Shown piece after piece: positions 7,024 through 30,190 of a stretch of 64,000 nucleotides of DNA (its first letter is position 1; each line of letters opens with the position of its first letter). The stretch lies in NCBI RefSeq assembly GCF_011046245.1, contig NZ_CP049241.1, positions 620,001 to 684,000 on the forward strand, read 5' to 3'. A model generated the notes under the pieces. The model saw nothing but the letters and a program-made list of their open reading frames with translations. It had not been told where the DNA came from and made no database searches. The stretch is from Allorhizobium pseudoryzae (GTDB lineage Bacteria; Pseudomonadota; Alphaproteobacteria; Rhizobiales; Rhizobiaceae). Both the position numbers and the translations under genes were made by a program.

Positions 7024-7049
7024 TGGTGTCGCCCCAAAGGTTTGTCCCT
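7024..7049 (+). repeat. Left terminal inverted repeat of the Tn7-like transposon
   Basis: The end begins TGGTGTCGCCCC and continues AAAGGTTTGTCCCT. The reverse complement of the right end reads TGGTGCGGCCCC then TAAGGTTTGTCCCT, matching at 23 of 26 positions. It is flush against the TCAGG duplication. Confidence 0.9.
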
Positions 7050-7058
7050 ACGGCAGGC

Positions 7059-7163
7059 ATCTGTGGCCAAAAGTGCCTTTATCGCTGGCCCCAAACGAAA
7101 TCATGGCCAACTATCAGGTCGGCAGACACCTTACCTTCCAAACCTAAACGTTTGGGGGCACCA
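7059..7163. promoter_or_regulatory. Probable TnsB-binding repeats inside the left end
   Basis: The terminal core GCCCCAAAGG (7031-7040) recurs as GCCCCAAACG at 7088-7097 and, inverted, as the complement of GCCCCCAAACG at 7149-7159; the inverted copy is followed by GCACCA, a near mirror of the TGGTG terminus. A second block, CATCTGT (7059) then AAAGTGC (7070) and ATCGCTGGCCC (7081), has a counterpart inside the right end (CATCTGT, AAAGTGC, ATCGGTGGCCC on the complement). Repeated sites at both ends are what TnsB-type transposases need. Binding is inferred, not shown. Confidence 0.55.
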
Positions 7164-7690
7164 GTCTGGTTGCTGCAATTTCGCTATCGGCTTGATGTTT
7201 CGACCGACAAACTGGACCACTGGAAACCCATCCGACAGAAGATCGTAGAGCGCCTCAGGGTCACCCAGCGCTTCCGCTGCATCGATACCGGAGCGCCAGC
7301 AAAGAAGCCCGCCTCCAGATCGCGATCCGGAGTACGCAGATAGATCATGCATCGGACGAGCAGGTCATAGGCAGAACGATAGGTCTGGAAGCCCGCCGCC
7401 ATCACTTGGCTCTCTTGCCGGTCTCCGTTTTGAGCCAGACTTGAGAACCCTTTGCCTACGTCGTCAGTATGAAGGATTTCGAACCTGACGTAGTCGGTGT
7501 TACGTTTGAGGGTGCGGCCAAGTGGCCGCTCAAAAGCCACGGCATCGAAGTTCGGGTCGCTGTAAACCAGGATGGCTCTGAAAGAGCTTTTTTCATCACC
7601 TCCGTCGCCGTGATCTATCTGCGTGACATATGCACCTTCGAGATAAAGATCATCAGTGCCATCTAAGACGAAAGCTTCTCGTCGCCCAAA
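7131..7690 (-). pseudogene. Frameshifted remnant of an unknown protein gene
   Basis: Two minus-strand frames join into one plausible protein. The first reads FVLDGTDDLYLEGAYVTQID, later AILVYSDPNFDAVAFERPLG and LLVRCMIYLRTPDRDLEAGFFAG. At about 7285-7300 the coding quality moves to another frame, giving GIDAAEALGDPEALYDLL and QFVGRNIKPIAKLQQPDW to a stop at 7131. No start codon is visible before the conserved part, which runs upstream into the tRNA-like sequence. I do not recognise the family. A single-base indel and loss of the 5' end make it a likely dead gene, and its tail overlaps the transposon's left-end repeats. Confidence 0.5.
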
Positions 7691-7691
7691 A

Positions 7692-7800
7692 TGGATGTGG
7701 GGTGGCGGACTCGAACCGCCTCTACGGTCTCCCGGCTTGACGATCAGGGTTCAAGCACTTTCTTGCCGATGACGTGTCTCCTCCACCACCTGGCCCCACA
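7692..7800 (-). other. tRNA-like sequence, probably non-functional
   Basis: On the minus strand a perfect T-arm (GGCGG, loop TTCGAGT, CCGCC) is followed by CCCCACA-T-CCA. The first seven bases, TGTGGGG at the far end, pair with that acceptor half, and a GTG/CAC D-like arm follows. However, the span is 109 nt, no clean 5-bp/7-nt anticodon arm can be drawn, one base is unpaired between acceptor and T-stem, and the 5' half is also the end of an open reading frame. It may be a degenerate class II tRNA or a captured tRNA 3' end. Confidence 0.3.
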
Positions 7801-8074: not shown

Positions 8075-10075
8075 ATGGGGGCCATTGTGGATGCATCGGC
8101 GATAAAAACGGACGAATTGATCAAGCCCGATATGCAGGCCGTGCTATCACGCACACACTTATCCCTGACCTTGCATGACTTCCTTCTTCCCGTTTTTGAG
8201 GCCGTGTCAAACGCGATGCACGGAATCGAGGCGAAATACGGAGATAAGCAGTCCAGTGAGCTGGGGAAGATTGCGATCAGGTTCGAGCATCCCAACGACC
8301 CGCTGAAACTAAAAATTACGATTACTGACAACGGGGTCGGCCTGAACGATGAGAACTACAAGTCCTTCAAAACACCTTTCTCCGGATATAAGCTGAAGGC
8401 TCATGGACGTGGTTTCGGTCGCTTCATAGCATTTAAGGTATTTGGCAGATCGGTATACCTCAGCCGATATGAGTTTTTTGCTGACCAGCTGACCCGTTCA
8501 TTTCAGTTCGATCTCCTTCGAGAAAAGGAATTCATATTTCTGGATGAAGCGCCAGCGTTCGACGAAACCGGCGTCTGCGTGGTCTATGATCAGCTGCTGA
8601 CACCGTGGCATGAACTCGTTCGAGAACTGCAGTCTAAAGATGTGGCCGACTCGATAGCCAGCCACTTTCTGCCCTATTTTCTCTACCGCTGGCTTCCGGA
8701 GATTACGATACAATTCGACGATCTGGAGCCTCAGGACATCAAAGCGCACTTCAGCGCAGTGTTCATCAAGTTCAAGTCGGGGGACTTTGCATTTGAAATC
8801 GATGGTGTTTCCGAGACCATCAAGTACGCCCTAACGAAAATACCGAAAACAAAGTCATTCAAGAATCATTGCCTCTTGTTCTCGGCGGCGGACCGGATAG
8901 TCGGTGCGCCACGCGACCTGTCCAACAAGCTTGGACAACCGCATTTCCTCGACGAGAAGAATGAAAGCTATATCATCATCGGTGTCGTGAGCAGCACTGC
9001 ATTTGAGTCCCGGTTGAATGACGCCCGCACCGGACTGAACCTGTCCGCTAAAGCCGTCGAGGGGATCGTCTCGAAGGTGAGTGACGTGATCCAGGCGTCG
9101 GAAACCGCTCAGATCGAAAAAATCAAAAGTGAGCAGTCTCACGATTTGGCGGACGCTCTGAAAGAAAATCCAATCCTCCGAATCGGATTAAAGGGTCGAA
9201 GCGTTACAGACTATGTTGCCTCGAAGCCGAACAACTGGTCAGCCGAGGAATTCGTATCAGACTTGGCAATCGAACGTTTCCGCGCGTCGAACGATCTCAG
9301 TAAACAGATAGCCAGCGTCATGGAGAACCCCGACAGCTATCGGGAAAACATCGAAAGTCTGGCAAGTACCCTTGATGCGAACAAGAAGGAAGCACTCGCC
9401 GAATACGTCCTTCACAGGAAAAGCGTAATCGAACTGGTCGAAGCCGCCCGCAAATTCCGGCCTGACGGCGGGCGAACGCCGGAAGATACCATCCACGAGC
9501 TTGTCTTCAGGCGGTTCACAGATAATGTCGAAGCCAGCTATTTTGAGCACAACCTATGGCTCATCGACGATGCGCTCGCCTTCCTGCCGTATATATCCAG
9601 CGACCGAACCATGCATGGCGGCAATAGGAAAACCGGCGACAAAGTCACCGATATCGCATTTTTCGACGATAGCATGGTTTTGGGCGACAACGACGGGACG
9701 ACCGTTACGATTGTTGAATTCAAGCGGCCAAGCCGGGATGATTATAGCTTCGGCAATGTCAAAAGTGATCCCGTGCTACAGGTTATAGAGACCTTGGAGA
9801 AGGCAACAGAACGAGGGTCCATCACCAAGACGGATGGGACGTTCTTCGCATTTCGTGGGGTGGTTCGTCGCTTCGCGTTTATTATCGCCGATCAGACACC
9901 ATCGCTGGTCAAAGTCTTGAAAAAGCATGACTTCAAGAACGATTGGAATCCCGAGATTTTCGTTCGGTATAGAGACAACGAAGAAATTTTCATCCAGGCA
10001 TTTGGATACGACACGCTCGTTGCGAACGCCAAAAAGCGCAATCAGGCTTTCTTTTCGGTGCTCTTGGGTGAGTGA
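8075..10075 (+). CDS. GHKL ATPase fused to a PD-(D/E)XK-like nuclease, candidate defence protein
   Basis: The 666-residue protein begins with an HSP90/MutL/kinase-type ATPase domain: N-box FEAVSNAMHGIE (42-52), the Asp/Gly motif ITDNGVGLND (83-92) and a glycine lid HGRGFGRF (110-117). After a long helical middle region, the C-terminal part has VTDIAFFDDS (about 523) followed by TIVEFKRPSRDDY (about 545), the D-x(n)-E-x-K spacing of restriction-endonuclease-fold nucleases. Single-gene ATPase-nuclease fusions of this sort occur in phage-defence islands. It stands alone, plus strand, within the transposon cargo. The nuclease assignment is by motif only. Confidence 0.75.
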   Translation: MGAIVDASAIKTDELIKPDMQAVLSRTHLSLTLHDFLLPVFEAVSNAMHGIEAKYGDKQSSELGKIAIRFEHPNDPLKLKITITDNGVGLNDENYKSFKTPFSGYKLKAHGRGFGRFIAFKVFGRSVYLSRYEFFADQLTRSFQFDLLREKEFIFLDEAPAFDETGVCVVYDQLLTPWHELVRELQSKDVADSIASHFLPYFLYRWLPEITIQFDDLEPQDIKAHFSAVFIKFKSGDFAFEIDGVSETIKYALTKIPKTKSFKNHCLLFSAADRIVGAPRDLSNKLGQPHFLDEKNESYIIIGVVSSTAFESRLNDARTGLNLSAKAVEGIVSKVSDVIQASETAQIEKIKSEQSHDLADALKENPILRIGLKGRSVTDYVASKPNNWSAEEFVSDLAIERFRASNDLSKQIASVMENPDSYRENIESLASTLDANKKEALAEYVLHRKSVIELVEAARKFRPDGGRTPEDTIHELVFRRFTDNVEASYFEHNLWLIDDALAFLPYISSDRTMHGGNRKTGDKVTDIAFFDDSMVLGDNDGTTVTIVEFKRPSRDDYSFGNVKSDPVLQVIETLEKATERGSITKTDGTFFAFRGVVRRFAFIIADQTPSLVKVLKKHDFKNDWNPEIFVRYRDNEEIFIQAFGYDTLVANAKKRNQAFFSVLLGE

Positions 10076-10159: not shown

Positions 10160-10594
10160 ATGTCCTACAATTTGCACAGCTGCATTTCGGATGAATTCAA
10201 CGGCTTCGACGAAGGCCAAGTCTTCAGGCTAGATAGTGGCCACGTTTTTCAGCAGAGTGTTCATCACTATCATTACCACTACGCATATCGGCCCCGTGTG
10301 AGAGTTTTCCAACAAGGGTCGAATCTCGTCATCCAGGTGGAAGGGGTGCCGGGGGCAGTTCCCGTCCGTGAGATAAGCTGCGTCGAAGAGGGCGCGATTG
10401 TTTCTGACTTCAAAGGATATGAAGGCCAGAGCATATTTCAGTTCGAAAATGGCCACGTTTGGGGGCAGGCGGAATACAAATACAGTTATCACTATGCCTA
10501 TCGTCCGAACGCCATCGTGATTGATGGTATCAATGGGCTCGAACTACATGTCGAAGGAATGGATGAGACTGTCCGTGTGCGACGATTACGTTGA
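10160..10594 (+). CDS. Uncharacterised protein of two tandem HYAYRP repeats
   Basis: This 144-residue protein consists of two copies of a unit of about 65 residues. Copy 1 has NGFDEGQVFRLDSGHVFQQ then HYHYHYAYRPRV; copy 2 has KGYEGQSIFQFENGHVWGQ then YSYHYAYRPNA. Each ends with an alternating hydrophobic segment and a VR-x-(I/L) tail. The unit looks like a small beta-sheet domain rich in Tyr and His. There is no signal peptide or catalytic motif I recognise. It follows the GHKL-nuclease gene by 84 bp on the same strand and could be its partner. Confidence 0.75.
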   Translation: MSYNLHSCISDEFNGFDEGQVFRLDSGHVFQQSVHHYHYHYAYRPRVRVFQQGSNLVIQVEGVPGAVPVREISCVEEGAIVSDFKGYEGQSIFQFENGHVWGQAEYKYSYHYAYRPNAIVIDGINGLELHVEGMDETVRVRRLR

Positions 10595-11578: not shown

Positions 11579-12371
11579 TTAGCGGCCAACACGCGACCTA
11601 AGCTTCCGCATGGGTAGCGACTCCACATATTGAACTTCCCGATCGGCGGTGTACGGCAGTTCGATCCCCCACGTCCGCATTCGTGTGACGGCTTCTTTCC
11701 CAGAAATGCCAAGCCTGATCGTAACGATGCGCAGGCTAAGGGCTCCAGCCGACCACCCTTCCAGAATCGTCCGCTCGTATTCTGGATGTTCCGGCTTGAA
11801 GTGGCTGTTGTCCCCGTTTCGGAAAAGATCGATGGCCTTCAGAATGCAACTAACGGCCTCCTCGTCGGACATGTAACCAGCTTGGAAACCTGTCACCGAG
11901 GGCCAAGATTCCTCGTGCCACCACCTGGGTGACCGTGTGTATCGTTCGTTGCCGCCAAGTTCGAACCGCCAGTAACTCCCGCGCGCACGAAAATAAAAGT
12001 GATGTCCGTCTAGCCGTCCCTCTGCCTGCACCGGCGTCCAGCCCGATAAGTGGTACAGTTCGAAATCCCTTAGCCATTCCAGCTCCCCCTCGGGTATCAG
12101 CTGAGAGATGCAACCGTTGAAGGTCGAAGGGAGCGTCTTCGGGATCGTCAAACTCCAGGCCAAAACCAGCGTTGGCCATGGCGCGGAAAAACTCCGACAT
12201 CTTGTGTGCCACCCTAGGCGGGGTCCAACTGTCGTCATTGCGAATGTAGCCCGCCTTGTCGGCGAGTTGCTCGACCTCTCGCCTGTCTTCTGCCGACATC
12301 TTTTTGAAGGTGATCGCGTAGGTGCAGGAGCCGTTGCTCCAAAGTGGCTTTAGAACCAGCTTGCTGGACAT
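11579..12371 (-). pseudogene. Hypothetical gene split by a frameshift
   Basis: The frame starting at ATG 12371 encodes MSSKLVLKPLWSNGSCTYAI, later AHKMSEFFRAMANAGFGLEF and ends its sensible part near DAPFDLQ. About 12100-12115 the coding signal moves to a second frame that continues LIPEGELEWLRDFELYHLSG, FYFRARGSYWRFELGG and ERTILEGWSAGALSLRIVT to a stop at 11579. Together they form one protein of about 260 residues. I recognise no domain. It is the last gene of the minus-strand cluster beginning at 15854, 40 bp after the phosphoesterase gene. Confidence 0.55.
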
Positions 12372-12411: not shown

Positions 12412-13218
12412 TCAAAGCTCGATCACGAAACCATGGCGATACCCGTTTTTGCCACGTTCATGGCGATAGCCGAGTGGGTTACAGATCACCCGCGTGTTTC
12501 CCTCGACGTAGTCTTGAAATTCATGGACGTGGCCGTGAATCCAGATATCTGGCCGCCTCGTCTGGATGACATCAGTGAGATCGCTGGCGAAAGCAGCGTT
12601 GGTGGCATCACCCTGGTACTGTTTCAGCAACGACCGTGGAGACGGCGCATGATGCGTTAGGACCACGGTCTTGCCGGTCCAAGATTTTGCCATCTCACCA
12701 GAGATAAATGCCCTGCTCTCCATATGCCTGGCGATGATCTCGCGGCTTGTGATGAGCCGAGGCATTCCCTCACGGAAGCGAGGCGAGCCATAGATTTCGC
12801 GGAAATCGAGCATGCTTCTTCGGCAGAAGTACAAGGCGGCCTCGGCACGATCAGGAAGCGGCAACTCATCGTCGATTCCCCACGGAACCCGATAGTCAGT
12901 CCAGAGCGTCGCGCCGATGATCCTGACGTGATCGATTTCGAGCGTTTCGTTTTCCAGAAGATGGATGTTGCTTTCGTCGGTGGCCTTTCGCCCATCCGAC
13001 AGGGCACCGTCGATGGTGTTCCCATAATAGTCGTGGTTCCCAAGCACCACGACGACCGGAATCGTTGGAGCAATCCGCCGTTTCAGGAATTCGAGGCCGA
13101 ACGCGAGGAAACCAGATAGGTCGCCTGCGCAGACGCAGATATCGGCTTGAGGGATGTCAATTTCGGTAGTCATATCGGCGTGAGTGACGTGCATGTCACT
13201 GATGATCCATGCTTTCAT
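12412..13218 (-). CDS. Calcineurin-like metallophosphoesterase
   Basis: The chosen start is ATG 13218 (MKAWIISDMHV) with GAAGGT upstream, giving about 268 residues; longer in-frame starts exist but would overlap the preceding gene. All metallophosphoesterase motifs are present in order: SDMHVTHAD (D-x-H), CAGDLSG (G-D), VLGNHDYYG (G-N-H-D), VVLTHHAPSP and WIHGHVHEFQD (G-H-x-H). A two-metal phosphoesterase active on nucleotides, nucleic acid or phosphoprotein is expected. It lies 75 bp after the AAA+/M41 protease gene on the same strand, apparently in one operon. Confidence 0.88.
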   Translation of the reverse strand: MKAWIISDMHVTHADMTTEIDIPQADICVCAGDLSGFLAFGLEFLKRRIAPTIPVVVVLGNHDYYGNTIDGALSDGRKATDESNIHLLENETLEIDHVRIIGATLWTDYRVPWGIDDELPLPDRAEAALYFCRRSMLDFREIYGSPRFREGMPRLITSREIIARHMESRAFISGEMAKSWTGKTVVLTHHAPSPRSLLKQYQGDATNAAFASDLTDVIQTRRPDIWIHGHVHEFQDYVEGNTRVICNPLGYRHERGKNGYRHGFVIEL

Positions 13219-13292
13219 GGCTGTACCTTCAAGGATGTGGGGAAAGAGGCGCAGGATGCTGCGCATCGTTGGCCGTAAAAGAGTGCGAAGCT

Positions 13293-15197
13293 TCAGGCCA
13301 AGGTCGCTATGCATGGCAGTGCGTCGAGCTTAGCCGCCATCTTTGCGACCTGATCGGCCGAAACTCTCCCCTTCTCCTCCAGCTCGTCGGCAATAGCCTC
13401 CACGAGTTTCAGGTGACTGCGGACAATCTGCTTCGCCCGTTCAAATTCGACCCGCAGTACATCGTCCACCCAGATTGCGACGCTAGGGTCGCGAAGGCGA
13501 AGTGTCTCAAGGTCCCGGTCGCTCTTCGCCAGGCTATGACGAAGGCGACTACCCATGCCCATACCGCTCTGTAACATTGTGGCGATGCGCGTCGCTTGGG
13601 CCAGATCAGAGTTCGGGCCTGCACCAGCTCCGTCGCTCACCGCTCCAAGGAGCACTTCTTCAGCGGCAATCCCCGCCAGCAACACTGCAATTCGATCCCT
13701 GTAGGTTCTGACGGTGCGGTATGCGACGTTGGGTACCTCGAAGTATGCCCCACCACCCGGCACCGTCTCACTGTCATTGCGCGTGTGATCGATGATCATG
13801 GCACCGTAGAACTTGCCATGATCAAGCGCGACGACCGCGACGGTATGGCCCGCCTCATGAACCGCGAGCGCCCGCCGCAATTCGCCTGTGATCGCCACCA
13901 TTTCTGGCAGCGATTTCACGATGTCAGCCACTGCCACATCACGTTTGGCCCGTCGGGCAAGACGTTTGGCATCTCGGGCCACCTTGGCGAGATCAGCTCC
14001 GGAAAACCCGTTGGTGGCTGCCATCAACTTTGGATGGTGCTTTCTCGGCAGAGGCTGACCGAGCTGTTGCTGAAGGATGGCGATCCTGTCTGACGCAGTG
14101 GGGAGGGGAATAGCAATATGTCTGTTCAATCGCCCGGGCCGCAAAATGGCAGGGTCGATACGATCCAGAGCATTGGTTGCACCGATTACGACGACGCCTT
14201 GACGCCCATCGAGCCCGTCCAGGTGTTCGAGAAACCCGTTCACCACCTGTGTGCTGTAATCTCTGTTATCAGCCGAGAAGGAATTGCGGTCGCCGAAGCT
14301 GTCCAACTCATCACAAAATAGAATGCAGGGCGCTGTTTCCTTCGCCTTTTCGAAGTCACCTCTCATAGCCTTCAGGAGGTCACCAAGATGCCCCCTTGCC
14401 TGCCATCGCGCCAGAGACGTCGCGATGATTGGCACATTGCATTGTCGGGCAAGTGCGGCGGCAAATTGCGTCTTTCCGACGCCTGGCGGTCCTGATAAAA
14501 TAATCCCGGTATCGACTTCCGACCAATCGATCTTACCTCGCTGCCAGTCGATCAAGTCCTGGGCAAGCTCAAGTCCCCAATCCTTGGCTTGGCCATAGCC
14601 GAACATGTCCTGCAACGGCGGCAGGCTTTCACTCTTGGCACTCGACGGTTTGGCATCGAGGGCAGAAGCCTCGGCCAGACGCGCCAACGCGTTCCCGATT
14701 GGACGACCTCGCCGCAATGCCGCCCAAACATGCAGTAGCGGATAAGACATCGCCGCTTCCGCTTCAGAGGGACTGACGTCCATCTGATAGGCAATCCGGC
14801 ATCCGATCCGAAAGTCCATTGTCGAGATCGGGGGGATGTCGACTTCGACGTCAACTTTCAAGGAGACTTGAACAGGAAGTTCGGCACCCTGTTCCCTGAA
14901 AATGAGAAGGCGGCGCTTTCGGCTGAAGTCCCCATCCATCCTCTTGAGAATGGTCCTTGGCTTATCGGTAGCCGCAATCATCATGTAGGCGATATCATCG
15001 CGATCCGCAGAAAATCGAAGGACGAGATTTTCGGCGCTTGCGTCGTAGTCCTCGCCAGATCGGTCTGATGGAACATTCAACAGGACCACGCTGTCAGCAC
15101 CTCTGATAAAGTCAGGGGCCTTCCTGAGTGCCCGTTTAAGCGTGCAGTACAACGCTGCGTCCTGCGGTGTTTTCAGGGAATGGTTTGTTTTAGGCAC
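13293..15197 (-). CDS. Soluble FtsH-like AAA+/M41 metalloprotease
   Basis: The 634-residue protein has a cargo-specific N-terminal region (1-200) with no membrane segment. An AAA+ domain follows: Walker A SGPPGVGKTQFA (about 230), Walker B ILFCDELDSF (about 291) and second region of homology ATNALDRIDPAILRPGRL. A C-terminal M41 peptidase domain has the zinc motif HEAGH (about 445) and a downstream SDLAQATRIA ligand segment. Housekeeping FtsH is membrane anchored; loss of that anchor and a new N-terminus point to a specialised protease. It lies between a TnsA-like gene (60 bp upstream) and a phosphoesterase gene. Confidence 0.88.
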   Translation of the reverse strand: MPKTNHSLKTPQDAALYCTLKRALRKAPDFIRGADSVVLLNVPSDRSGEDYDASAENLVLRFSADRDDIAYMMIAATDKPRTILKRMDGDFSRKRRLLIFREQGAELPVQVSLKVDVEVDIPPISTMDFRIGCRIAYQMDVSPSEAEAAMSYPLLHVWAALRRGRPIGNALARLAEASALDAKPSSAKSESLPPLQDMFGYGQAKDWGLELAQDLIDWQRGKIDWSEVDTGIILSGPPGVGKTQFAAALARQCNVPIIATSLARWQARGHLGDLLKAMRGDFEKAKETAPCILFCDELDSFGDRNSFSADNRDYSTQVVNGFLEHLDGLDGRQGVVVIGATNALDRIDPAILRPGRLNRHIAIPLPTASDRIAILQQQLGQPLPRKHHPKLMAATNGFSGADLAKVARDAKRLARRAKRDVAVADIVKSLPEMVAITGELRRALAVHEAGHTVAVVALDHGKFYGAMIIDHTRNDSETVPGGGAYFEVPNVAYRTVRTYRDRIAVLLAGIAAEEVLLGAVSDGAGAGPNSDLAQATRIATMLQSGMGMGSRLRHSLAKSDRDLETLRLRDPSVAIWVDDVLRVEFERAKQIVRSHLKLVEAIADELEEKGRVSADQVAKMAAKLDALPCIATLA

Positions 15198-16428: not shown

Positions 16429-16442
16429 ATATTGTGCAATAT
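16429..16442. promoter_or_regulatory. Palindromic operator candidate upstream of the HTH-ietAS operon
   Basis: ATATTG-TG-CAATAT is a near-perfect 14-bp palindrome 25 bp before the HTH start codon. It is followed by related half-sites, ATGCAATTTATGCAATATG, leading into the start. The AT-rich repeated TGCAAT motif is what an autoregulating HTH protein would bind. Binding is inferred from position and symmetry. Confidence 0.5.
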
Positions 16443-20391: not shown

Positions 20392-22260
20392 CTAGGCTCG
20401 CGCCATCACATCACCATAGAGTACGTAGGCGAATGAAGTTGTGGACGCGCCGCGAGATGCATCTCTCGACCTTCGCACCGACTCCGCGAGGGTTTCACGA
20501 CTGCGGAGGAAAAGGTCGAGTGAACCGATCACGAGCTTGCTTGCGTGTTCATCACGAACAGCCCAAAGCGGAGCCAAAACTCCTCCAAAACCGTTGTTGG
20601 TAAGCGCGCTTGCCCACCCGCTCGCCATTCCTAACTCTAAAGTGGAGGCACCGACTTCACAGGCATTTAGAACAAACAAACTGCGGTCCCTTCGACCCAG
20701 CTTAACCCCACTCTGGGCAACTTCATTAACGGTGAGGTGTTTCCCTCCGGACATCTCAATGCTCGACGGGCGGTCCGCGTTTCCGCATTTGCCATGACCA
20801 GCAAAGTGGACGACCTTGACCTTTGCCTCAGGTGGTGACTCCAAGAAATGCAAGATTGCGTCGTACGTGGGTTCATGCTCGACGGCTTCGAGGTTATCTC
20901 GCAACCAGCGCCCCTCCTCATGGGCCGCAGGTAAGTCTCGGTCCTGATAGGAAGGGACAAAACTGGCGACAATCCCGTCCGCAAATGATTGAGCTAGGCC
21001 TGTGTGAGAGGAACTGGGCCACCGAGCTACCGGGTGGCTGAAGAAAAGATGATCTTTCCCTTCACCATCTATTTTAGGACACATCATTTCCCATGGTACA
21101 TAAGGTTCATCAGAGTAAAATTGGATCGGGAAACAAGGCCCAATTTCAGCTACCAAGGAGAGGTAATGCTCCTGAAATGCCGATGGCGTCCGACCCCAAA
21201 TCTCTTCACCAATTGATTTCAATGTTCTTGCATGATTACCCGGCTCCAATGTTGGGCAAAGCTTGAGTAGGCTTTCGGCGTATGCCCGGGTAGACGGACC
21301 CAGAGTGAGCTGACCGTTCGACTGACGCCTGCCTGATCCCAGGCGGTTTGAGTAAGTTACCCATCGGTAGGTGCCGTCTAAGTCAGTGCCTTCGCGATTG
21401 ATAGATACGACGAAGTCTGATGCATCGAGCGAAGCCTTGATTTGTGCCGGTGCGGTGAAGTTGGGAGTTCGGCTCGCATCGTTGCCGCTCAATTGCACGT
21501 GTGGACGGCTTTCGATCCCTTCTGCCTTCTCTTTCTCAAGCTGAACGAGCGGAAATGTCCGCCTAGCAAAGCCACATCTTCTTCCTTTGTAGAAAAATTG
21601 CGCCGTCAGCTGAGCGAATCCAGACGCTTGCGCGCTTTGGTCCACTTGCGCATGAATCATCGCAGGCGACGATCTCTGTCCTCGGCGTAATTTCACCTTT
21701 GCCCTTGCCGTCTCCTCATCGAAAATAAGTTGCGCCGAGTCTACGACGACATCAACGTTCAGTGTCTGCCAATGTGCAGATACGTCGTCAATGACAGAAG
21801 AACCACCATCCGTGAATTCGTCCGCCTCTTCTTCTAAGTAAATGAGAACTACGACATCACTGCCCACATTGAGTTCGCCCTTCACAGAGATATGTGGGTA
21901 TCGCTCCAAAGATAGCCGCTCTTCTTCCACTACTGAAGCGGTTTCCTGATGCCAATTGTCGAAAGCGACGTCGGCAGCATCCCGACCAGCTGAGCGGAAG
22001 GGTGCCTTAATCTCGATATTTTCTTCGACGCGCTCTACGTGGGGATGCCGCCTCACCAGCGCGAGTAGGAACGACGCAGAGTTCACTGAGGCGACCTGCG
22101 CTTCCAACTTCGCCACGCCTTCAGAAAACTCAATCTGCAAGGAAAGCAACGAACCGAGGAATTCGCCCTCAAATACATCGATGATATAGTGCCAGCTGTC
22201 GTCCGGTAGGGATACGGATGGCGAGCGGTAGTTAGCATTCCGCAACGAAGGATCAGTCAT
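20392..22260 (-). CDS. CHAT-domain (caspase-like) protease
   Basis: The 622-residue protein ends with a CHAT peptidase domain: VVHFAGHGKCGN holds the catalytic His (about 487), and LFVLNACEVGASTLELG holds the catalytic Cys (about 534), followed by GVLAPLWAVRDEHA. The first 370 residues are mixed alpha/beta with no TPR or membrane segment I can see, and probably sense or hold a partner. Its ATG overlaps the stop of the preceding lipase gene by four bases (ATGA), so the two are translationally coupled. CHAT proteases in conflict systems cleave an effector; the neighbouring lipase is the obvious candidate. Confidence 0.85.
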   Translation of the reverse strand: MTDPSLRNANYRSPSVSLPDDSWHYIIDVFEGEFLGSLLSLQIEFSEGVAKLEAQVASVNSASFLLALVRRHPHVERVEENIEIKAPFRSAGRDAADVAFDNWHQETASVVEEERLSLERYPHISVKGELNVGSDVVVLIYLEEEADEFTDGGSSVIDDVSAHWQTLNVDVVVDSAQLIFDEETARAKVKLRRGQRSSPAMIHAQVDQSAQASGFAQLTAQFFYKGRRCGFARRTFPLVQLEKEKAEGIESRPHVQLSGNDASRTPNFTAPAQIKASLDASDFVVSINREGTDLDGTYRWVTYSNRLGSGRRQSNGQLTLGPSTRAYAESLLKLCPTLEPGNHARTLKSIGEEIWGRTPSAFQEHYLSLVAEIGPCFPIQFYSDEPYVPWEMMCPKIDGEGKDHLFFSHPVARWPSSSHTGLAQSFADGIVASFVPSYQDRDLPAAHEEGRWLRDNLEAVEHEPTYDAILHFLESPPEAKVKVVHFAGHGKCGNADRPSSIEMSGGKHLTVNEVAQSGVKLGRRDRSLFVLNACEVGASTLELGMASGWASALTNNGFGGVLAPLWAVRDEHASKLVIGSLDLFLRSRETLAESVRRSRDASRGASTTSFAYVLYGDVMARA

Positions 22261-23651
22261 CGACTTAACCGTCCTTCAACAGCGCCAACGACAACAAATA
22301 CGTCTCCCGCCGTATGCAATCCGTCTCCGCTCACGCTTACAGTATAGTGGCCAGATACCAGCGACACTGAGCAACTGTAAGTTCCGCCCCGAGGATACAT
22401 GAGCGCTTTTTTGCTCTCACCGAGATCACCTTCCCGGACAAAAGTCGCAGTCAGATTTTGCCGATACGCGTTTAAGGTTGCCGAGATCACAATCGGCCCA
22501 TCGGCGTCATAGACGTCGCCTACGTCGATGGAAATATTCCCTGGGTCATTGGACACGCGGAATTTCCCCAAATCGATTGTTGTTCCTTGTATGATGCCTT
22601 TCAAATGCGTCAACGCAGTCTCAGCATTCGGCAAAACCGCGTGGGTATTGGCAAAATAAACGCCAGCAGCTGAAGCGTTGTCATCGTGAATAGCTGAAAC
22701 CCGGGGGACGGTACCGTCACCACGCATGTCTCGACCTTCGTAGTCATGTAGCAATTCGACGCGCCCGTCAGATTGAAGGCGAGCGGACTGAAACGTCGGC
22801 TGATCAATACCCACTACAGGAACTATTCTAACCTGCTGTCTAGCGTAATCAGTGTCTCGGAGGTTTGCAGCATATGCATCCAAAATTTCATCATGAAACT
22901 TTCGCGCTTCGATAGCGCGCTGAAGGTCCATGTTGGGCAGTTGCACCTCATAGACCCTCTTAAGTGGTCCACCTCCGTCGTTAACGACGGGGTATATTGG
23001 TAGCAGTTGATACAGAGATTGAAATGACCGGAAGGCACGAGACCCGTCTGCAAGAGTAATGCCGCCCACCGACTTCTTGAGCCCATTGCATATCCCGTCG
23101 ACGGCGTTCAGAGAACCTCGATAGGGCGTGCCCAAACTAATGAGCATCCGAGTTTCTCTCCATCCCTCCAAGCACTCAATGAAGTAGCGCGATACCAGCC
23201 CACCCATAGAGTGAGCAATAAGCGTGATCTTGGCCTTTTCGTTTCCGCTTTTTTGTCGCCAATCGGAAAGTTTCTCTTGACAGAATCGAGCCAATTTCCT
23301 CGCGGAAACGCGGTTGTCCCGTCGCCAGTCATAGGGAAACTCAAAATAGTTCACGTTCTTTTCGAGAGCTAAATTGGCAAGGAGGCTATGGGAAACAATA
23401 GAGTATCCTCCAATTTTCCAAAGCCCTGGTACCACCTTGATATTGGAAATAAGGGCTGTTGCCTCTATCCCATCGCCAAGGTCATCGTCGCCGTTGTCAG
23501 AACCGGTGATTTCGAGAAGATCGAGAGAGTCATTTGCGACCATGTCCCAAAGCGACCTGGCGGAATTGCCCCAGATGACATCACCGTCCTTCATCAGGAC
23601 GGAGCCGGTAATTCCTGGAAGAAAGATAACAAGATCAGGATGTTTGGTCAT
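22257..23651 (-). CDS. LCAT-like alpha/beta-hydrolase (predicted lipase)
   Basis: The 464-residue protein begins PDLVIFLPGITGSVL, the oxyanion-side strand of lecithin:cholesterol acyltransferase-like lipases. It continues with NYFEFPYDWRRDNR and the nucleophile elbow TLIAHSMGGLVSRYF (Ser about 146), and a later GDGTVPRVSA region holding the acid, with His in FANTHAVL. The last 90 residues (GPIVISATLNAYRQN, then SVSLVSGHYTVSVSGDG) form an Ig-like beta domain. No signal peptide is seen, so the lipase is cytoplasmic and would need activation or delivery to reach membrane. It is the first gene of the pair with the CHAT protease. Confidence 0.85.
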   Translation of the reverse strand: MTKHPDLVIFLPGITGSVLMKDGDVIWGNSARSLWDMVANDSLDLLEITGSDNGDDDLGDGIEATALISNIKVVPGLWKIGGYSIVSHSLLANLALEKNVNYFEFPYDWRRDNRVSARKLARFCQEKLSDWRQKSGNEKAKITLIAHSMGGLVSRYFIECLEGWRETRMLISLGTPYRGSLNAVDGICNGLKKSVGGITLADGSRAFRSFQSLYQLLPIYPVVNDGGGPLKRVYEVQLPNMDLQRAIEARKFHDEILDAYAANLRDTDYARQQVRIVPVVGIDQPTFQSARLQSDGRVELLHDYEGRDMRGDGTVPRVSAIHDDNASAAGVYFANTHAVLPNAETALTHLKGIIQGTTIDLGKFRVSNDPGNISIDVGDVYDADGPIVISATLNAYRQNLTATFVREGDLGESKKALMYPRGGTYSCSVSLVSGHYTVSVSGDGLHTAGDVFVVVGAVEGRLSR

Positions 23652-24082: not shown

Positions 24083-24253
24083 ATGCGCCCATCGAAAAAT
24101 GTGCTGCACCACGTGTTGGTGCGTCGTGCCATTCTGACCGAATTGCGCTCCGGAAACGGAGAAGGCGTTCATTCTCGTTTCCAGGTTTTCCAGGATGGCG
24201 GGATTGATGCCGATAAGAACGCAATGGTCGGGATGCGTACGTCCAAATGGTAA
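24083..24253 (+). CDS. Small protein upstream of and overlapping tnsA
   Basis: A 56-residue protein starts at ATG 24083 behind a perfect AGGAGG with six-base spacing. It begins MRPSKNVLHHVLVRRAILTE and ends MVGMRTSKW. Its stop lies seven bases inside the tnsA coding region, so tnsA is probably coupled to it. It has no recognised domain; the N-terminal half is basic. It may be a leader, a regulator or a transposition accessory protein. The ribosome-binding site is the strongest evidence that it is real. Confidence 0.6.
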   Translation: MRPSKNVLHHVLVRRAILTELRSGNGEGVHSRFQVFQDGGIDADKNAMVGMRTSKW

Positions 24254-24933
24254 GCGCGACCAGCTTTTGCCCCACCCCCCACGATGAACCAGAACTTTGG
24301 GTGCCGCCACGTCTTCACGGTGGCGCACGCAACGTTCCTGTGAAGCACATGCTGAAAACCAACGGCGCATCGGTGTTCGACAACCGCCAAGTACAGCATG
24401 AAAGCGAGCTTGAGCAGCAGGTATCTGCTGTCATCCAGGCCCGCCACGGCATCGTGGAAGTCCGTTCCCAGTTCCCGAAGGTGACGTATGTCGATCCGGA
24501 GGGAAAACTGCGGGAACACATCTTCGATTACTGGGCCCGGTTCAAAAGCGGTTTCCGTTTGGCCATTGCAGTCAAATACGAGCGCGAAAAAGCCGAACTC
24601 CACCCGGTCTTTGCTGGTGTTCAGACAATACATCGTGCGCTGTTCGATGACATGAGGATCATGACTGAGCGGCACGCGACCAAGGACGATTTTCGCAATG
24701 CAAAGACCATCCTCTGGTCTCGCGAATTTCATGATGAGGATCATGTACGCACGCTGTTGAGCGACCTGCATGGGCAGAGCGGTAGCCAGATACAGTTCTT
24801 CCAGCTGTATGCTCCGCATGTCGAACGGACGGATCGCACCATCGCGATCTGGCGGCTGATCGATCTGCAGGTCCTCAAACCTGTTCAACGCGGCCGGGTC
24901 AATGAACTGACCTGGTTCACCATCAACCTCTAG
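24247..24933 (+). CDS. tnsA: TnsA-like transposon endonuclease
   Basis: This 228-residue protein matches the TnsA endonuclease domain: VQHESELEQQVSAVIQAR carries the catalytic Glu, REHIFDYWARFKSG the Asp, and RLAIAVKYEREKAEL the strand ending in Lys. TnsA cuts the 5' ends of the element and together with TnsB gives cut-and-paste excision. No strong ribosome-binding site precedes ATG 24247, consistent with coupling to the small upstream ORF; a start at a later Met is possible. It is followed by tnsB. Confidence 0.85.
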   Translation: MVSATSFCPTPHDEPELWVPPRLHGGARNVPVKHMLKTNGASVFDNRQVQHESELEQQVSAVIQARHGIVEVRSQFPKVTYVDPEGKLREHIFDYWARFKSGFRLAIAVKYEREKAELHPVFAGVQTIHRALFDDMRIMTERHATKDDFRNAKTILWSREFHDEDHVRTLLSDLHGQSGSQIQFFQLYAPHVERTDRTIAIWRLIDLQVLKPVQRGRVNELTWFTINL

Positions 24934-24987
24934 CCAACCCAAATCCTGCCCTCACTCAGACACGTCGTGCCTGAGCACGGCGAAGCT

Positions 24988-27198
24988 ATGTCCAAAGGAA
25001 AGAAGATGACCGAATACACTCCGATCACCGAAATGGGCCCACTAGACCGTTTCACCTACCGTGGCACCAACTGGGTCCCTGTTGACTACGACAGCAAGGA
25101 ATACCGTTTCCAACGGGAGACGGACCACCGTTTCGAGACGCGTATTTCCCACGCTGAAATCCGCCAGGCGCTGAAAAACGAGACGGCATCGGTCCACTAC
25201 AATTTCCACACCAAGACGGAGACGAAACTGCGCCATATCGTCGGCGACAAGCGCGTCGACGACTTCAAACCGCGTAACGTAGCCATCGCTCGTTTCCACG
25301 AAGCGTTGATCCTTCGCTATGAGCAGCATTGCGCGGAAACTGGTCGCAAGCTCCCCCGTAGCGAGAAACTTGCGGGTTTGCTCAAGAAATGGAGCCTCGA
25401 AATCCAGATCGAGGCCCAGGAACTGACAGAACAGGAGGGCACCAAGCGCAAGACGCGCTGCGATGCCAGCACGAGCTTTTTCAACACGCCATCGGTCCGC
25501 AGCTTTAACCGTCATTTTCGCGAGTACATGAGCTGCGGTCGTGATGTTCGCGCTCTCATTTACCGTCGCAATGGACCCGGGTTCCGCAATCAGAAGGTCG
25601 AATGCGCCGAGAGCTATGCGATCTGGCTGGAGGAAGCACGCAACTATGCCAGCCGTCGTAAGCCGTCGAAGGCGAAGCTGCTGCGTGATGTCCACGCCCG
25701 CATCGCGGAGGAGAACAAAAAACGCGTGGGGAATGCACCGCTCATTGCTCCCGGGCGCAAGCGTTTCGAAGCTCTGATTGATGCCATGGACGAATTCGAG
25801 GTCGTTGCGGGCCGTGAAGGGCTTCCATTCGCTCGTGCCCAGTTTAAGCCGAAGATGGATTCCTACGATACCGAACGTCCTGGCGAACGCGTCGAGATGG
25901 ACGATTGGAATGCCGATGCCATGACGGCCATGCAGACGTGCGGTTTCTTTCAATTGCTTCCCAAGGCAATCCAGGAATACCTGATCGACAACCCGCAACG
26001 CATTTGGTTCTGCGGTGCTGTGGACACGGCCACCAACTATGTGCTGGCACTCAAAGGAGGACGCAATCCGTCCTCGGCCCTTGTCGTCGATACCCTTGAA
26101 ATGGTGATGACCGACAAGACGGATATTGCCAAGCTGGTGGGTGCGAAGACCCCGTGGTTCGGCGTTCGTCCTGAGGTAGTCTACACTGACAACGGTTCGC
26201 CCTACATCGCCGACGCGACGCGTGATGCATTCCTCATGTGCAAGATTGCGTTGACGCGTCCACCCGCCGGTCAAGCGTGGAAGCGCCCCTTTATCGAGAG
26301 CCTGTTCAAAACGCTCGCGCGCGACATCATGATGTTCTTCGACGGACGCACCTTCTCGAACGTGGTGGAGAAGAACGACTATGACGCTGAAAAAAACGCG
26401 GCCCTGGCTGTCGACGAATTCATCAATCTGGTGATCCGCGCAATCTGCGACATCCACCACAACCGCCCGTCTGCACGCCTCAACAATCTGACGCCGCACG
26501 AAGCCTGGGTTCAGAAAACCAAAACCTATCGTGTACGTGCGATGCCCGGTCGCCACGAGAAGCGCCATATCTTCGGTGTGACGAAGAAACGCGTCATCGA
26601 CAGCGCTGGTGTGACGGTTCACGGAATTCCTTACAACTCTGATATTTTGCAAACCTTCCGCCGCAAGGATGGTTCTAAGGAATACCCGGTGCGCATCCAC
26701 CGCAACGATCTCTGGGCCGTGTCAGTCTTTACTGGGGAAGGTTGGCTGACGGTCGAAAATCGCATCGGTATGCCGACGAACATCTCTCTGGCAGAATGGT
26801 ACCTTGCCAAGCAGGACCTCAATCGCCGCAACGGGGTGAAGTCCGAAGCCAACCTGCCGATCATGTACGAGGCGATCAACGTCATGCGTCGTGCTGGTAC
26901 CAGCGCCGCAATGCGCGCGGGAATCTCCCTTCATACACTGCGCCCGGAAGAGATTTCGCACGCTACCGACCAGTTGTTCGAAGGCCGCCCGTTCACTGAG
27001 GAGGACAAGGTCGACGAGGTGGAACTGCACGAAGACGACATCGCCTACGACCCGCTTCACGACGGCTACGTCGGTCCCCAAGGCGGTGAGTTTGCCGGTC
27101 CTCCGACCATCGAGGAGATGCTTGAAGGCATTGCGGAAGCTGCCGCCTATTCCGACAACAACGATGATGAACCTTCGCATTTTGGAGAGATCGAATGA
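24988..27198 (+). CDS. tnsB: TnsB/Mu-type DDE transposase
   Basis: This protein of about 736 residues has the retroviral integrase-fold core: first Asp in GERVEMDDWNAD (about 305), a conserved VDTATNYVLAL strand, second Asp in VVYTDNGSPYIA (about 400) and Glu in KRPFIESLFKTLARD (about 435). N-terminal helical DNA-binding regions and a C-terminal Mu-type beta-barrel segment (KRVIDSAGVTVHGIPYNS) flank it. TnsB binds the end repeats and joins 3' ends to target. I start at ATG 24988; ATG 25006 is also possible. Its stop overlaps the tnsC start (ATGA). Confidence 0.92.
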   Translation: MSKGKKMTEYTPITEMGPLDRFTYRGTNWVPVDYDSKEYRFQRETDHRFETRISHAEIRQALKNETASVHYNFHTKTETKLRHIVGDKRVDDFKPRNVAIARFHEALILRYEQHCAETGRKLPRSEKLAGLLKKWSLEIQIEAQELTEQEGTKRKTRCDASTSFFNTPSVRSFNRHFREYMSCGRDVRALIYRRNGPGFRNQKVECAESYAIWLEEARNYASRRKPSKAKLLRDVHARIAEENKKRVGNAPLIAPGRKRFEALIDAMDEFEVVAGREGLPFARAQFKPKMDSYDTERPGERVEMDDWNADAMTAMQTCGFFQLLPKAIQEYLIDNPQRIWFCGAVDTATNYVLALKGGRNPSSALVVDTLEMVMTDKTDIAKLVGAKTPWFGVRPEVVYTDNGSPYIADATRDAFLMCKIALTRPPAGQAWKRPFIESLFKTLARDIMMFFDGRTFSNVVEKNDYDAEKNAALAVDEFINLVIRAICDIHHNRPSARLNNLTPHEAWVQKTKTYRVRAMPGRHEKRHIFGVTKKRVIDSAGVTVHGIPYNSDILQTFRRKDGSKEYPVRIHRNDLWAVSVFTGEGWLTVENRIGMPTNISLAEWYLAKQDLNRRNGVKSEANLPIMYEAINVMRRAGTSAAMRAGISLHTLRPEEISHATDQLFEGRPFTEEDKVDEVELHEDDIAYDPLHDGYVGPQGGEFAGPPTIEEMLEGIAEAAAYSDNNDDEPSHFGEIE

Positions 27199-28196
27199 CC
27201 GACGCCAGCATCGCCATGAAAGTCCCCACCATGACCCCGTCGGACCGTAAGCTCCATCTCCATAAGCTGTACCTGCGCTACGCAAAATTTCATGAGGTCG
27301 GCGAGCACCTTGATGCGCTTATTGCCAACGCGAAAGCCTGCCGTGAGGGCGGTGGCTTCAAGGAACGCGCCCTCTTCGTGATCGGTGAATCTAATACGGG
27401 GAAGTCGCGCATGCTGGAGGAGCTTTTCCGCGAAAAGGCGAGCTTCCAACCGTACCGGGATGAGGAGGGCGAGTGGGTGCGCCCCTTGATCAGTATTGAA
27501 GCGCCGTCGCCGTGCAGTTCCAGGGAACTCGCACTGAAAATCCTGAAGGAGCTTGGTGCTGTCGTTCGCAAAAAACGAATTAGCAATCCGGAGCTGTATG
27601 ATTTTCTGAAAGATCAGTTGCGTGATCAGAAGGTGGAGTACCTGCATATCGACGAAATGCAGGACACGGTTCTCCACAACACGGAGTTCGCCATCAAATC
27701 CGTCCAGAGCGACGTGAAGAGCCTTCTCCAGATTAAGGACTGGCCCCTGCATGCCATTTTCTCTGGCGTCGATGAGTTGGCAAACTTCATCGAGGGAGGC
27801 GATGGCCAGATCGACAACCGCTCAAACACCGTTCGTCTTGAACTGTTGAAAGACCCAAGGGACCTGAGGGCGGCTGAACAGATTCTGTCCAATATCGTCG
27901 TTAAGCACGCAGGCCTTGAACCCGGCTGGGCTGAAAAGGACGAGCTTCCGGCACGCCTCATACTGGCAGGGCAAGGACGCTTCGGCACGATCTGTGACGA
28001 CGTCAAAAAAGCCTGCTTTGCCGCGATTGACGCTAATCGCCGCAAGGTCACTCTGTCTGATTTTGAAGGTGTGTACCAAATCCGCAAGGCACCGTTGCCC
28101 CAGGACAACCCTTTCCGTGGAACCAAGTGGAGGGACATCCTTCCACAGAATGCGCTCGCTGACAGGCGCAAACCAGTATCCAAACGAAAGAAGTGA
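27195..28196 (+). CDS. tnsC: TnsC-type AAA+ transposition regulator
   Basis: This 333-residue ATPase has Walker A FVIGESNTGKSRMLEEL (about 58-74) and Walker B VEYLHIDEMQDTV (about 148), with a later NIVVKHAGLE region. TnsC/TniB proteins form ATP-dependent filaments on DNA, link the TniQ-marked target to TnsA/TnsB and give target immunity. The gene overlaps tnsB by four bases and tniQ by one base, so the operon is tightly coupled. The Walker A text is GESNTGKS, the variant common in TniB-like ATPases. Confidence 0.9.
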   Translation: MTDASIAMKVPTMTPSDRKLHLHKLYLRYAKFHEVGEHLDALIANAKACREGGGFKERALFVIGESNTGKSRMLEELFREKASFQPYRDEEGEWVRPLISIEAPSPCSSRELALKILKELGAVVRKKRISNPELYDFLKDQLRDQKVEYLHIDEMQDTVLHNTEFAIKSVQSDVKSLLQIKDWPLHAIFSGVDELANFIEGGDGQIDNRSNTVRLELLKDPRDLRAAEQILSNIVVKHAGLEPGWAEKDELPARLILAGQGRFGTICDDVKKACFAAIDANRRKVTLSDFEGVYQIRKAPLPQDNPFRGTKWRDILPQNALADRRKPVSKRKK

Positions 28197-30013
28197 TGAT
28201 GTTCGGTTCAAAGCTTGCCCGCCAGGTCGCTCTCCATGATGACGAGTGCCAAGTAATGTTCGCTTCCAGGTTGGCGAAGGCCAACGGCTACCGTGACCTG
28301 GAAGAGTTTTGCTGGATGACCAGCCTGTCGCTGTCCGGCCTGCAGGCCATGAATGATGAGACCGCAGGCTTGTTGTCGGCTTGGTCTGGCGTCCCGGCAG
28401 CACGCCTCAGCAAGTTCGCATTGACCGGTAACAACGTGACGAGTTTCGGGGCGACATCCGTCCGGCGGTCACAGTTGGAAATGGCATCGCTCCGAGTTTG
28501 CCGCCATTGTCTCTGCCATGACATGCTTGCAGGGCACGGTCGCGCGGTAACACGTCCTTATGTTCGTGCTGTGTGGCGGTGGATGGCGATTGGCACATGT
28601 CCGATCCACGGGGGCGAACTTGAAGTGATCTCCGCAGACGATATCACCGCATGGATCGCACGGCGCGGTGACGCACTGGGTTTGAACCTTCCTGAAATTC
28701 GCGAGCCGGACCTGGCTGATGTCTACTTCTCTAACCGCGTGAACGGCGCAGGAAAGGCATCCGAGTTTCTGGACGAACTCCCGGCCTATGTGGCGGCAGA
28801 GTTCTGCACCGTCATCGGGCATTTTAAAAACCTTCCTGAGGACGGGCGTGCGCGAAACCGCATTCCGGATGGATTCATGAATGGCTCCAGCCGCCGGGAG
28901 GGCTTCCTGATTGCCAAGCAGGGCAAAGAAGCGGTCCTGTCTTTTCTCTCCCACCACGTTCATGCGGCTATCGAAACTGCCACCGAGTTCATGGATATCT
29001 ATGGCGTAGCACGTCGTTGGCTGCGGAAGTTCGTGGATGACCCTGACTATCGACCGGTCGTTGAGCTGTTTCAGCGCCACGCCGAGCAGCACATTCCCAT
29101 GGAGGCAGGCGATGTCTTCCTCACCGAAGTCAAGGAACGTCAAGTCCACACCGTTCGCTCTGCGGCCGTCGAGTACCAGCTTACAGCTGACCGGGTGACG
29201 AACGTAATCGAGAAATACGGCTTCACTACCGGCACCCCGGATGGTGGTGTTAAGGCCGCACGCGTGTTTCCTCGTGCAGCTCTGCATGAACAGCTGGTTC
29301 TGGAGACGCAGCTCCTCACGACACCTGAGGCAGCCAGCCTACTGGGCTGCACATGGCAATTCCTCGACATCCTGCTGCAGCAGGGACACCTGCCGTATCA
29401 TGCGAACTCGAAGGACTATGCAAGGGTATTCCGACGCATCTCTCGTGAAAGCGTGGCGCGCCTCATGGCACGGCTCAAGGCGCAACGAAACTGTATGTCA
29501 AACGAGGGACTTGTCTCGATCCACATCGCAACCACAATCTGCCATTGCAAGGTGTCCGAGATTGTTGCTCTCATTTTCGGCGGAAAGCTGACGAAGGTGT
29601 CGTGGTCAGGCGATGAGCTGCTCCTTAAGAACTTGCTCGTCGATCCCCAGGAGGTTCTTCCGCATGTGGCTCTTGATGAAGCGGATAACTATCTCGATGT
29701 TGCTGCCTTGGAGAAAGCACTGCGCACCACGACAGCCACAATCGATGAACTCCTCAAGCGTGAGTTCCTCCCAGTGCAGATGCGGCGTCACCCCCGGACT
29801 CGGGTCAACCAGCGTTTTGTCCATCCGGTTGCCGTCGAGCAATTTCTGGAGAAGCACATTTCATTGAGCACGATGGCCCGCGAGAATGGCAAACAGATTG
29901 CCGGTTTGAAACAGACGTTGGACAAGGAAGGGATCAAACCGATCTTTGAACCGACCGGCAAGATTGCCAGATTTTATCGAAGGTCTGAAGTTCAACGGCT
30001 TGGACTGGCGTGA
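28196..30013 (+). CDS. tniQ: TniQ/TnsD-like target-selection protein
   Basis: This 605-residue protein starts at ATG 28196, overlapping the tnsC stop (TGATG). The TniQ-type zinc-binding segment is VCRHCLCHDM (about 100) followed by GTCPIHGGEL (about 138). Long C-terminal helical regions with repeated HTH-like blocks (LTADRVTNVIEKYGF, LTTPEAASLLGCTWQFLDIL) follow, as in TnsD proteins that bind a specific attachment site. It is the only TniQ homologue in the element. Its stop is 177 bp from the right end, with a terminator between. By location the target may be next to tRNA-Thr. Confidence 0.85.
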   Translation: MMFGSKLARQVALHDDECQVMFASRLAKANGYRDLEEFCWMTSLSLSGLQAMNDETAGLLSAWSGVPAARLSKFALTGNNVTSFGATSVRRSQLEMASLRVCRHCLCHDMLAGHGRAVTRPYVRAVWRWMAIGTCPIHGGELEVISADDITAWIARRGDALGLNLPEIREPDLADVYFSNRVNGAGKASEFLDELPAYVAAEFCTVIGHFKNLPEDGRARNRIPDGFMNGSSRREGFLIAKQGKEAVLSFLSHHVHAAIETATEFMDIYGVARRWLRKFVDDPDYRPVVELFQRHAEQHIPMEAGDVFLTEVKERQVHTVRSAAVEYQLTADRVTNVIEKYGFTTGTPDGGVKAARVFPRAALHEQLVLETQLLTTPEAASLLGCTWQFLDILLQQGHLPYHANSKDYARVFRRISRESVARLMARLKAQRNCMSNEGLVSIHIATTICHCKVSEIVALIFGGKLTKVSWSGDELLLKNLLVDPQEVLPHVALDEADNYLDVAALEKALRTTTATIDELLKREFLPVQMRRHPRTRVNQRFVHPVAVEQFLEKHISLSTMARENGKQIAGLKQTLDKEGIKPIFEPTGKIARFYRRSEVQRLGLA

Positions 30014-30037
30014 CGACGCTTTCCATAATGAACGTTA

Positions 30038-30060
30038 AGCCCGCGAAAGCGGGTTTTTCT
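30038..30060 (+). terminator. Rho-independent terminator after tniQ
   Basis: CCCGC-GAAA-GCGGG (30040-30053) forms a stable tetraloop hairpin followed by TTTTTCTTT. It lies 25 bp after the tniQ stop and ends the tns operon inside the right end of the transposon. Confidence 0.88.
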
Positions 30061-30164
30061 TTGCCTATGAGGCAATCCGGGCCACCGATGATCGCACTTT
30101 CTGCAACGGACAGATGAACGATTTTCTTTCGGAACCCCAGGAAACCAAGGCTTTCATATTCATG

Positions 30165-30190
30165 AGGGACAAACCTTAGGGGCCGCACCA
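30165..30190 (-). repeat. Right terminal inverted repeat of the Tn7-like transposon
   Basis: Read on the minus strand this is TGGTGCGGCCCC then TAAGGTTTGTCCCT, matching the left end at 23 of 26 positions. It abuts TCAGG at 30191. Further in, on the same strand, CATCTGT, AAAGTGC and ATCGGTGGCCC repeat the inner left-end sites with wider spacing. Confidence 0.9.

Follow-up and report, generated by a model that had tools for sequence, protein, structure and literature searches.

Within a 64,000-nucleotide stretch of Allorhizobium pseudoryzae DNA (NZ_CP049241.1, positions 620,001 to 684,000; hereafter the window) lies a 23,167-bp Tn7-like element, 7024..30190, which is bounded on both sides and preceded by a gene for tRNA-Thr(GGT). 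Family assignments come from Pfam, PADLOC and NCBIfam profile searches. The target site, the element ends and the transposition genes are as follows.

6912..6986, + strand: tRNA-Thr(GGT) gene, the attachment site, intact (ARAGORN; Rfam RF00005, 72.3 bits)
7019..7023, no strand: left copy of the target-site duplication, TCAGG; the element starts 37 bp past the tRNA
7024..7049, + strand: left terminal inverted repeat, TGGTG...GTCCCT
24247..24933, + strand: tnsA-like endonuclease (PF08722, E 7e-4, below the curated cut-off; an unrelated lipoprotein family scores alike)
24967..27198, + strand: tnsB DDE transposase (V-K TnsB, E 5e-11; Pfam score below the curated cut-off)
27195..28196, + strand: tnsC/TniB AAA+ ATPase (PF05621, E 2e-16)
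28193..30013, + strand: tniQ/tnsD target selector, with a TniQ core and about five tandem winged-helix units (modelled)
30165..30190, - strand: right terminal inverted repeat, at whose end the homology of two other copies stops exactly
30191..30195, no strand: right copy of the target-site duplication, TCAGG, flush with the right end

The two terminal inverted repeats (TIRs) agree at 23 of 26 bases. The left end, TGGTGTCGCCCCAAAGGTTTGTCCCT, starts at 7024 and the right end stops at 30190. In a scan for left and right ends flanked by an identical flush 5-mer, with right ends sought up to 900 bp after tniQ and left ends upstream, this pair scored 21/24 and the runner-up in the window 16/24. A TIR pattern allowing up to three mismatches occurs at only two places in the 5.4-Mb genome, which are the two ends, and the reversed control gave none; the genome likewise holds a single match to the window TniQ at an E-value threshold of 0.001. 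Each TIR contains one clear core, GGTTTGTCCC, and blocks of the right end are conserved across about 100 bp. Repeat searches of the element ends detected no array of subterminal TnsB-site repeats. A preliminary description, made from the letters of the window, had read the termini directly, with a 23/26 repeat match and TCAGG flush on both sides, and its coordinates were right; its assignment to a bounded Tn7-like transposon with TnsABC-TniQ genes is borne out by the family searches together with the boundaries.

All four tns genes of the window are open frames. The E, D and K positions of TnsA, presumably its catalytic residues, are conserved in 14, 15 and 14, respectively, of the 15 sequences aligned, and all three are present in the window. 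The three acidic positions of TnsB are kept in 14/14 aligned sequences, and comparison with known systems matches this protein to PseTnsAB (2e-14) and Tn6677 TnsB (7e-14). TnsA and TnsB are encoded by separate open reading frames (ORFs), not as a TnsAB fusion. TniQ, at 606 aa, is modelled as a TniQ/TnsD core with about five tandem winged helices, and the stretch from tnsC to the right end holds no other selector gene.

We looked for close copies by scanning one genome per species, a design sensitive to close relatives only, and by a separate scan of plasmids. Near-identical elements are present in Rhizobium cremeum W16 (TniQ 94% identical) and Agrobacterium cavarae RZME10 (92%; 33,328 bp), and a third close copy (87%; 22,918 bp) sits on pRapFH23a, a conjugative plasmid of R. 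acidisoli FH23 that carries nod genes. TniQs 86% and 84% identical are also present in S. fredii and an Agrobacterium sp., respectively. Homology of the R. cremeum and A. cavarae copies to the window element stops exactly at 30190. All four close copies, the window included, have their own 5-mer flush with the inverted ends, those of the three others being GCCGC, TCAAT and GCATG; because these duplications differ, the copies were inserted independently. Copies agree at 26-32 of 33 bases inside the ends and at only 7-14 of 33 outside (six pairs per end). With both ends common to three close copies, each with its own duplication, the element boundaries are certain. The preliminary description had allowed for other copies sharing a different boundary; the three copies share the same ends.

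Two further observations concern these copies. An inverted stretch resembling the TIR core lies within the left end (window 7130-7165); it recurs in R. cremeum and is absent from the other two copies. In A. cavarae, the match to tnsB (near position 29670 of the element) is broken into two segments that lie in different reading frames, possibly through a frameshift or an assembly error.

The tRNA-Thr(GGT) gene, which ends 37 bp before the left end, does not figure in the preliminary description. The R. cremeum and A. cavarae elements lie 37 and 39 bp past tRNA-Thr(GGT), respectively, in the same orientation. From TIRs and duplications we also delimited more distant relatives, with TniQ identities of about 25-31%, that come from plasmids or from genomes of the same genus, family and order. 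One of these, in G704, is inserted 38 bp after tRNA-Thr(GGT). Others follow tRNA-Arg genes: tRNA-Arg(CCT) in G001 (43 bp), G024 (37 bp) and G772 (a 99-kb element at 41 bp); tRNA-Arg(TCT) in G030 (36 bp; duplication 4/5); and tRNA-Arg(CCG) in Sinorhizobium meliloti AK76 pSymB (a 52-kb element at 41 bp) and G034 (a 66-kb element at 36 bp). Bounded relatives of known size span 13.8 to 99 kb, with one exception of 8 kb. Altogether, among the 14 elements with two mapped ends, the window included, 10 lie 36-43 bp downstream of a tRNA in one orientation. In G015, a left end follows tRNA-Leu(CAA) by 41 bp, its tniQ is cut short and no right end was found; having been located by reading downstream of a tRNA, this case is biased and was left out of the counts.

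The G772 target offers a natural dissection. In its tRNA-Arg(CCT), an insert of about 230 bp, which we take to be group I-like, interrupts the anticodon loop (L156 ~1306-1616, minus strand). ARAGORN made no call for the split tRNA, and the insert has no Rfam match at the gathering cut-off. The 5′ half thus lies far from the insertion, so that recognition of the target at the DNA level would have to make do with the 3′ half, some 40 bp long, plus the spacer. The 3′ half of the target tRNA therefore seems to be enough.

Together, these findings point to a cut-and-paste Tn7-like transposon that homes just downstream of tRNA-Thr(GGT), with TniQ reading the 3′ half of the tRNA, a reading to which we give a probability of roughly 0.86. 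The single TniQ, a TnsD-type selector, would use its C-terminal winged-helix array to bind the 3′ half of the tRNA gene and would recruit the TnsC ATPase, which would in turn bring TnsA-TnsB and the paired ends. Insertion would then occur 37 bp past the tRNA (36-43 bp in the family) with a 5-bp duplication, leaving the tRNA intact and the left end towards it. The boundaries, duplications, site, spacing and orientation, and the family's use of several tRNA genes, are observed; the role of TniQ as DNA reader, the units of it that make the contact and the activity of the element are what we infer from these data.

Several points weigh against this interpretation. The role of TniQ as reader draws on homology, and the sister-pair comparisons consist of one pair each. 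In pairs that share a tRNA and have distant TniQs (window/G704 and G001/G772), identity of the array as a whole is not raised. The two ends of the R. cremeum element are on two contigs, joined only by their common duplication. Ends were sought in 37 elements, counting the window and its three close copies and leaving out G022, G021 and G816: 14 were bounded at both ends, one at the left only (G015) and 22 not at all, several of these 22 being on contigs that end nearby. Decoy pairs reach 18/24 with a 5/5 duplication and 20/24 with 4/5, so that four boundaries are by score no better than decoys: G001 (16/24), G024 (17/24), R. leguminosarum (16/24) and G030 (19/24 with 4/5). The R. leguminosarum boundary leans also on end sequence, and G001, G024 and G030 were accepted also on end sequence and position, so that the tRNA position is not fully independent in these three. 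Eight elements exceed 18/24 with 5/5: R. acidisoli (22), the window (21), G704, S. meliloti, G034, G527 and G820 (20 each) and G772 (19). Adding R. cremeum and A. cavarae, whose boundaries are fixed by homology, gives ten best-supported cases, 7 of them at a tRNA.

Moreover, four of the 14 fully bounded elements are not inserted beside a tRNA. Those of G527 (L161 3953) and G820 (L198 4658), both with a TIR match of 20/24 and a 5/5 duplication, lie 49 and 20 bp, respectively, after the stop codon of nrdJ, the gene for vitamin B12-dependent ribonucleotide reductase. In the TniQ tree, their proteins belong to the other main branch, that of G820 on a long branch and with unsure placement. On pRL1, a conjugative plasmid of R. 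leguminosarum Ta1k, a tentatively bounded 81-kb element has a tRNA-Met in opposite orientation about 4 kb inward of its left end, and none at the end. The plasmid site of the R. acidisoli copy shows no similarity to a tRNA, its scores being at shuffle level. The preliminary description had held that target choice must come from the one TniQ, which fits the tRNA insertions and does not readily account for this tRNA-less site. The five C-terminal winged-helix units of the R. acidisoli TniQ are 79-94% identical to those of the window, and the core is 85% identical; since the units are about as similar as the core, specificity appears unchanged and the plasmid insertion would have taken a second route. 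A second, looser (unspecific) route to plasmids thus probably exists, as judged mainly from this one close copy.

Two related elements on different Rhizobium conjugative plasmids (CP090109.1, about 605-686 kb; NZ_CP092352.1, about 510 kb) end near the same gene pair, encoding a ROK regulator and a Gfo/Idh/MocA oxidoreductase. This shared pair suggests a plasmid-borne attachment site.

A broader version of the homing interpretation treats TniQ of this Rhizobiales clade as a switchable tRNA-gene reader. Its fixed core would dock TnsC and its roughly five units would read the 3′ half, having been retargeted repeatedly (to Thr-GGT, Arg-CCT, Arg-TCT, Arg-CCG and probably Leu-CAA, with nrdJ in another main branch), and a selector-independent route would lead into conjugative plasmids. 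We regard this fuller version as tentative, at rather less than even odds.

The preliminary description had proposed searching relatives for an empty site. Such sites exist by synteny in G006, G017 and G021, where sequence homologous to the CheW region on the right of the element starts about 215 bp past tRNA-Thr, but an exact empty site, base for base, was not found among the relatives examined. In G019, about 5.8 kb of other DNA separates tRNA-Thr from the CheW region. The right flank of the element (window 30196-30300) matches the gene that follows tRNA-Thr in G019 (within L019 14062-15306, minus strand) at 73% over 76 bp and 60% over 20 aa. We take this piece to resemble the 3′ remnant of an inositol-monophosphatase-like gene, of which G019 has a longer version; Pfam gave no match for the short piece. 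The insertion site was probably rearranged before the element arrived, as far as these alignments indicate.

Three other explanations of the locus were weighed against active homing by TniQ. The element could be a fossil, once targeted to the tRNA and now inactive, as the divergence of TnsA and TnsB and the two-piece TnsB of A. cavarae might suggest. The four open tns genes of the window, with catalytic positions kept and ends and duplications intact, argue against this, as do the close copies found in further species, one of them on a conjugative plasmid, and we consider it unlikely. The tRNA position could also be passive, a hot spot that tolerates any element without active recognition; the region downstream of a tRNA is a common safe spot, and the other DNA after tRNA-Thr in G019 illustrates it. 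Tolerance would not, however, predict the 36-43 bp spacing and single orientation seen in 10/10 tRNA cases bounded at both ends, and independent insertions have used the same few tRNA genes, which makes this explanation very improbable. Finally, that a guide RNA picks the site, from a CRISPR-associated transposon (CAST) or a delocalised spacer, with TniQ a mere adaptor, is scarcely credible even though tRNA genes also serve some CASTs as attachment sites (PMC11406308), because no cas family was found among 16 element ORFs with Pfam (ten of the proteins also with PADLOC and NCBIfam), as the preliminary description had said of Cas genes, the element has no direct-repeat family at close spacing, the target matches nothing in the element interior beyond 10 nt, and a long TniQ with a winged helix-turn-helix array is linked to protein-guided TnsD (PMC10293859).

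Between the left end and tnsA, the element carries about 16 kb of cargo.

8075..10075, + strand: HATPase_c (GHKL-type) protein, 666 aa (PF02518, E 6e-6)
10160..10594, + strand: 144-aa protein without family assignment; the A. cavarae copy has it as well (95%)
11579..12238, - strand: 219-aa protein adjoining the protease module, whole or partial in 5 of 16 other sequences
12412..13314, - strand: metallophosphoesterase, often in the recurrent module (PF00149, E 8e-13)
13293..15197, - strand: FtsH-like AAA+/M41 protease, recurrent module (PF00004, E 3e-31; PF01434, E 3e-14; Walker A, HEAGH)
15258..15854, - strand: 198-aa protein, recurrent module, without a Pfam or PHROGs match
16434..16796, + strand: small 120-aa protein encoded ahead of IetA; the R. 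acidisoli copy has it too (69%)
16801..17787, + strand: IetA ATPase of IetAS (PADLOC, E 7e-67; NCBIfam NF042959, E 5.5e-56, below its cut-off)
17842..20361, + strand: IetS subtilase of IetAS (PADLOC, E 3e-39; PF00082, E 1e-42; NCBIfam IteS below cut-off)
20392..22260, - strand: CHAT-domain protease-like protein (PF12770, E 2e-12)
22257..23651, - strand: LCAT/lipase-like protein, paired with the CHAT gene (PF02450, E 4e-15)

The IetAS defence pair is the only named defence system among these genes. The preliminary description had called the element a mobile defence island of conflict-type genes; IetAS supports this, and most of the other genes are without a tested defence function. Across the 17 sequences compared, IetS and the CHAT-lipase pair are common only to the window and the R. 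acidisoli copy, and the 666-aa HATPase_c protein was not found in any of the other 16. A KwaB-like gene is annotated nearby inside the R. acidisoli element.

The module at 12412-15854 recurs more widely. Both the 198-aa protein and the FtsH-like protease are present in 10 of 12 bounded elements tested, often with the metallophosphoesterase; the exceptions are G527, with a partial protease match only, and G030, with none. This test left out R. cremeum as a whole (split contigs) and G820, which by separate search has both genes. Of the 26 matches to the 198-aa protein found across 57 genomes of the genus, 15 share a contig with a TnsB match no more than 60 kb away (about 0.5 expected); seven are in genomes with TnsB far away or on another contig, and four in genomes with no TnsB match. 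Conversely, 14 of 20 TnsB matches have the 198-aa protein nearby. The proteases of G395 and G704 are 93% and 86% identical to that of the window, and their TnsB proteins only 34-35%. Given this lack of co-divergence with TnsB, the module is either a favoured piece of travelling cargo or a helper swapped freely between elements. The unnamed protease module is possibly a defence system and possibly a transposition helper.

The result is a family with mapped ends, narrow spacing, several tRNA targets and an intron-split natural control, in which how TnsD/TniQ proteins read DNA and change targets becomes directly testable without CRISPR. Protein-guided insertion of large DNA at a safe site is of practical interest for rhizobia, and the cargo shows defence genes travelling between chromosomes and symbiotic plasmids.

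Like Tn7 (TnsABCDE, inserting at glmS), the window element combines TnsA, TnsB and TnsC with a TnsD-type selector, a 5-bp duplication and a safe site downstream of a conserved gene. It differs in its tRNA-gene target, in having no second selector gene between tnsC and the right end, and in its ends, which begin TGG, those of Tn7 beginning TGT. The TniQ core is 12% identical to E. coli Tn7 TnsD in a structural alignment (8glw). The nrdJ sites of G527 and G820 are protein-gene attachment sites, comparable to glmS for Tn7. With Tn5053/Tn402 (TniABQR) the element shares a TniB-type ATPase and TniQ; Pfam found no resolvase among the 16 element ORFs scanned, unlike in those transposons, and the window has tnsA and a tRNA-gene target where Tn5053 uses a plasmid res site (PMC11406308).

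According to PMC8649781, insertion downstream of tRNAs seems to occur in Tn7-like elements, and some plasmid copies are without an identifiable tnsE. CyCAST (CAST I-D) makes protein-guided insertions 30-33 nt after tRNA-Leu (PMC10293859), and for Tn7-like elements whose TnsA and TnsB are fused, homing to tRNA genes by TnsD is established (PMC10293859 and PMC11406308). For CyCAST and I-B2 these sources describe protein-guided insertion after a tRNA gene and a TnsD-type selector with a C-terminal helix-turn-helix array, features that the window element appears to share. In contrast to the fused TnsAB of I-B2 and I-D (PMC11406308), tnsA and tnsB of the window are separate, no CRISPR-Cas was seen and there is one TniQ. 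The targets differ from those of CyCAST and I-B2 as well, comprising tRNA-Thr(GGT), several tRNA-Arg and possibly tRNA-Leu(CAA) at 36-43 bp in Rhizobiales hosts. A literature search, with most subscription journals and preprints outside it, found no paper that joins Tn7-like elements to tRNA-Thr, nrdJ or FtsH cargo. Homing of TnsD to tRNA genes was known in cyanobacterial elements; the Rhizobiales elements described here form a clade in which TnsA and TnsB are separate, and they lie at other tRNA genes.

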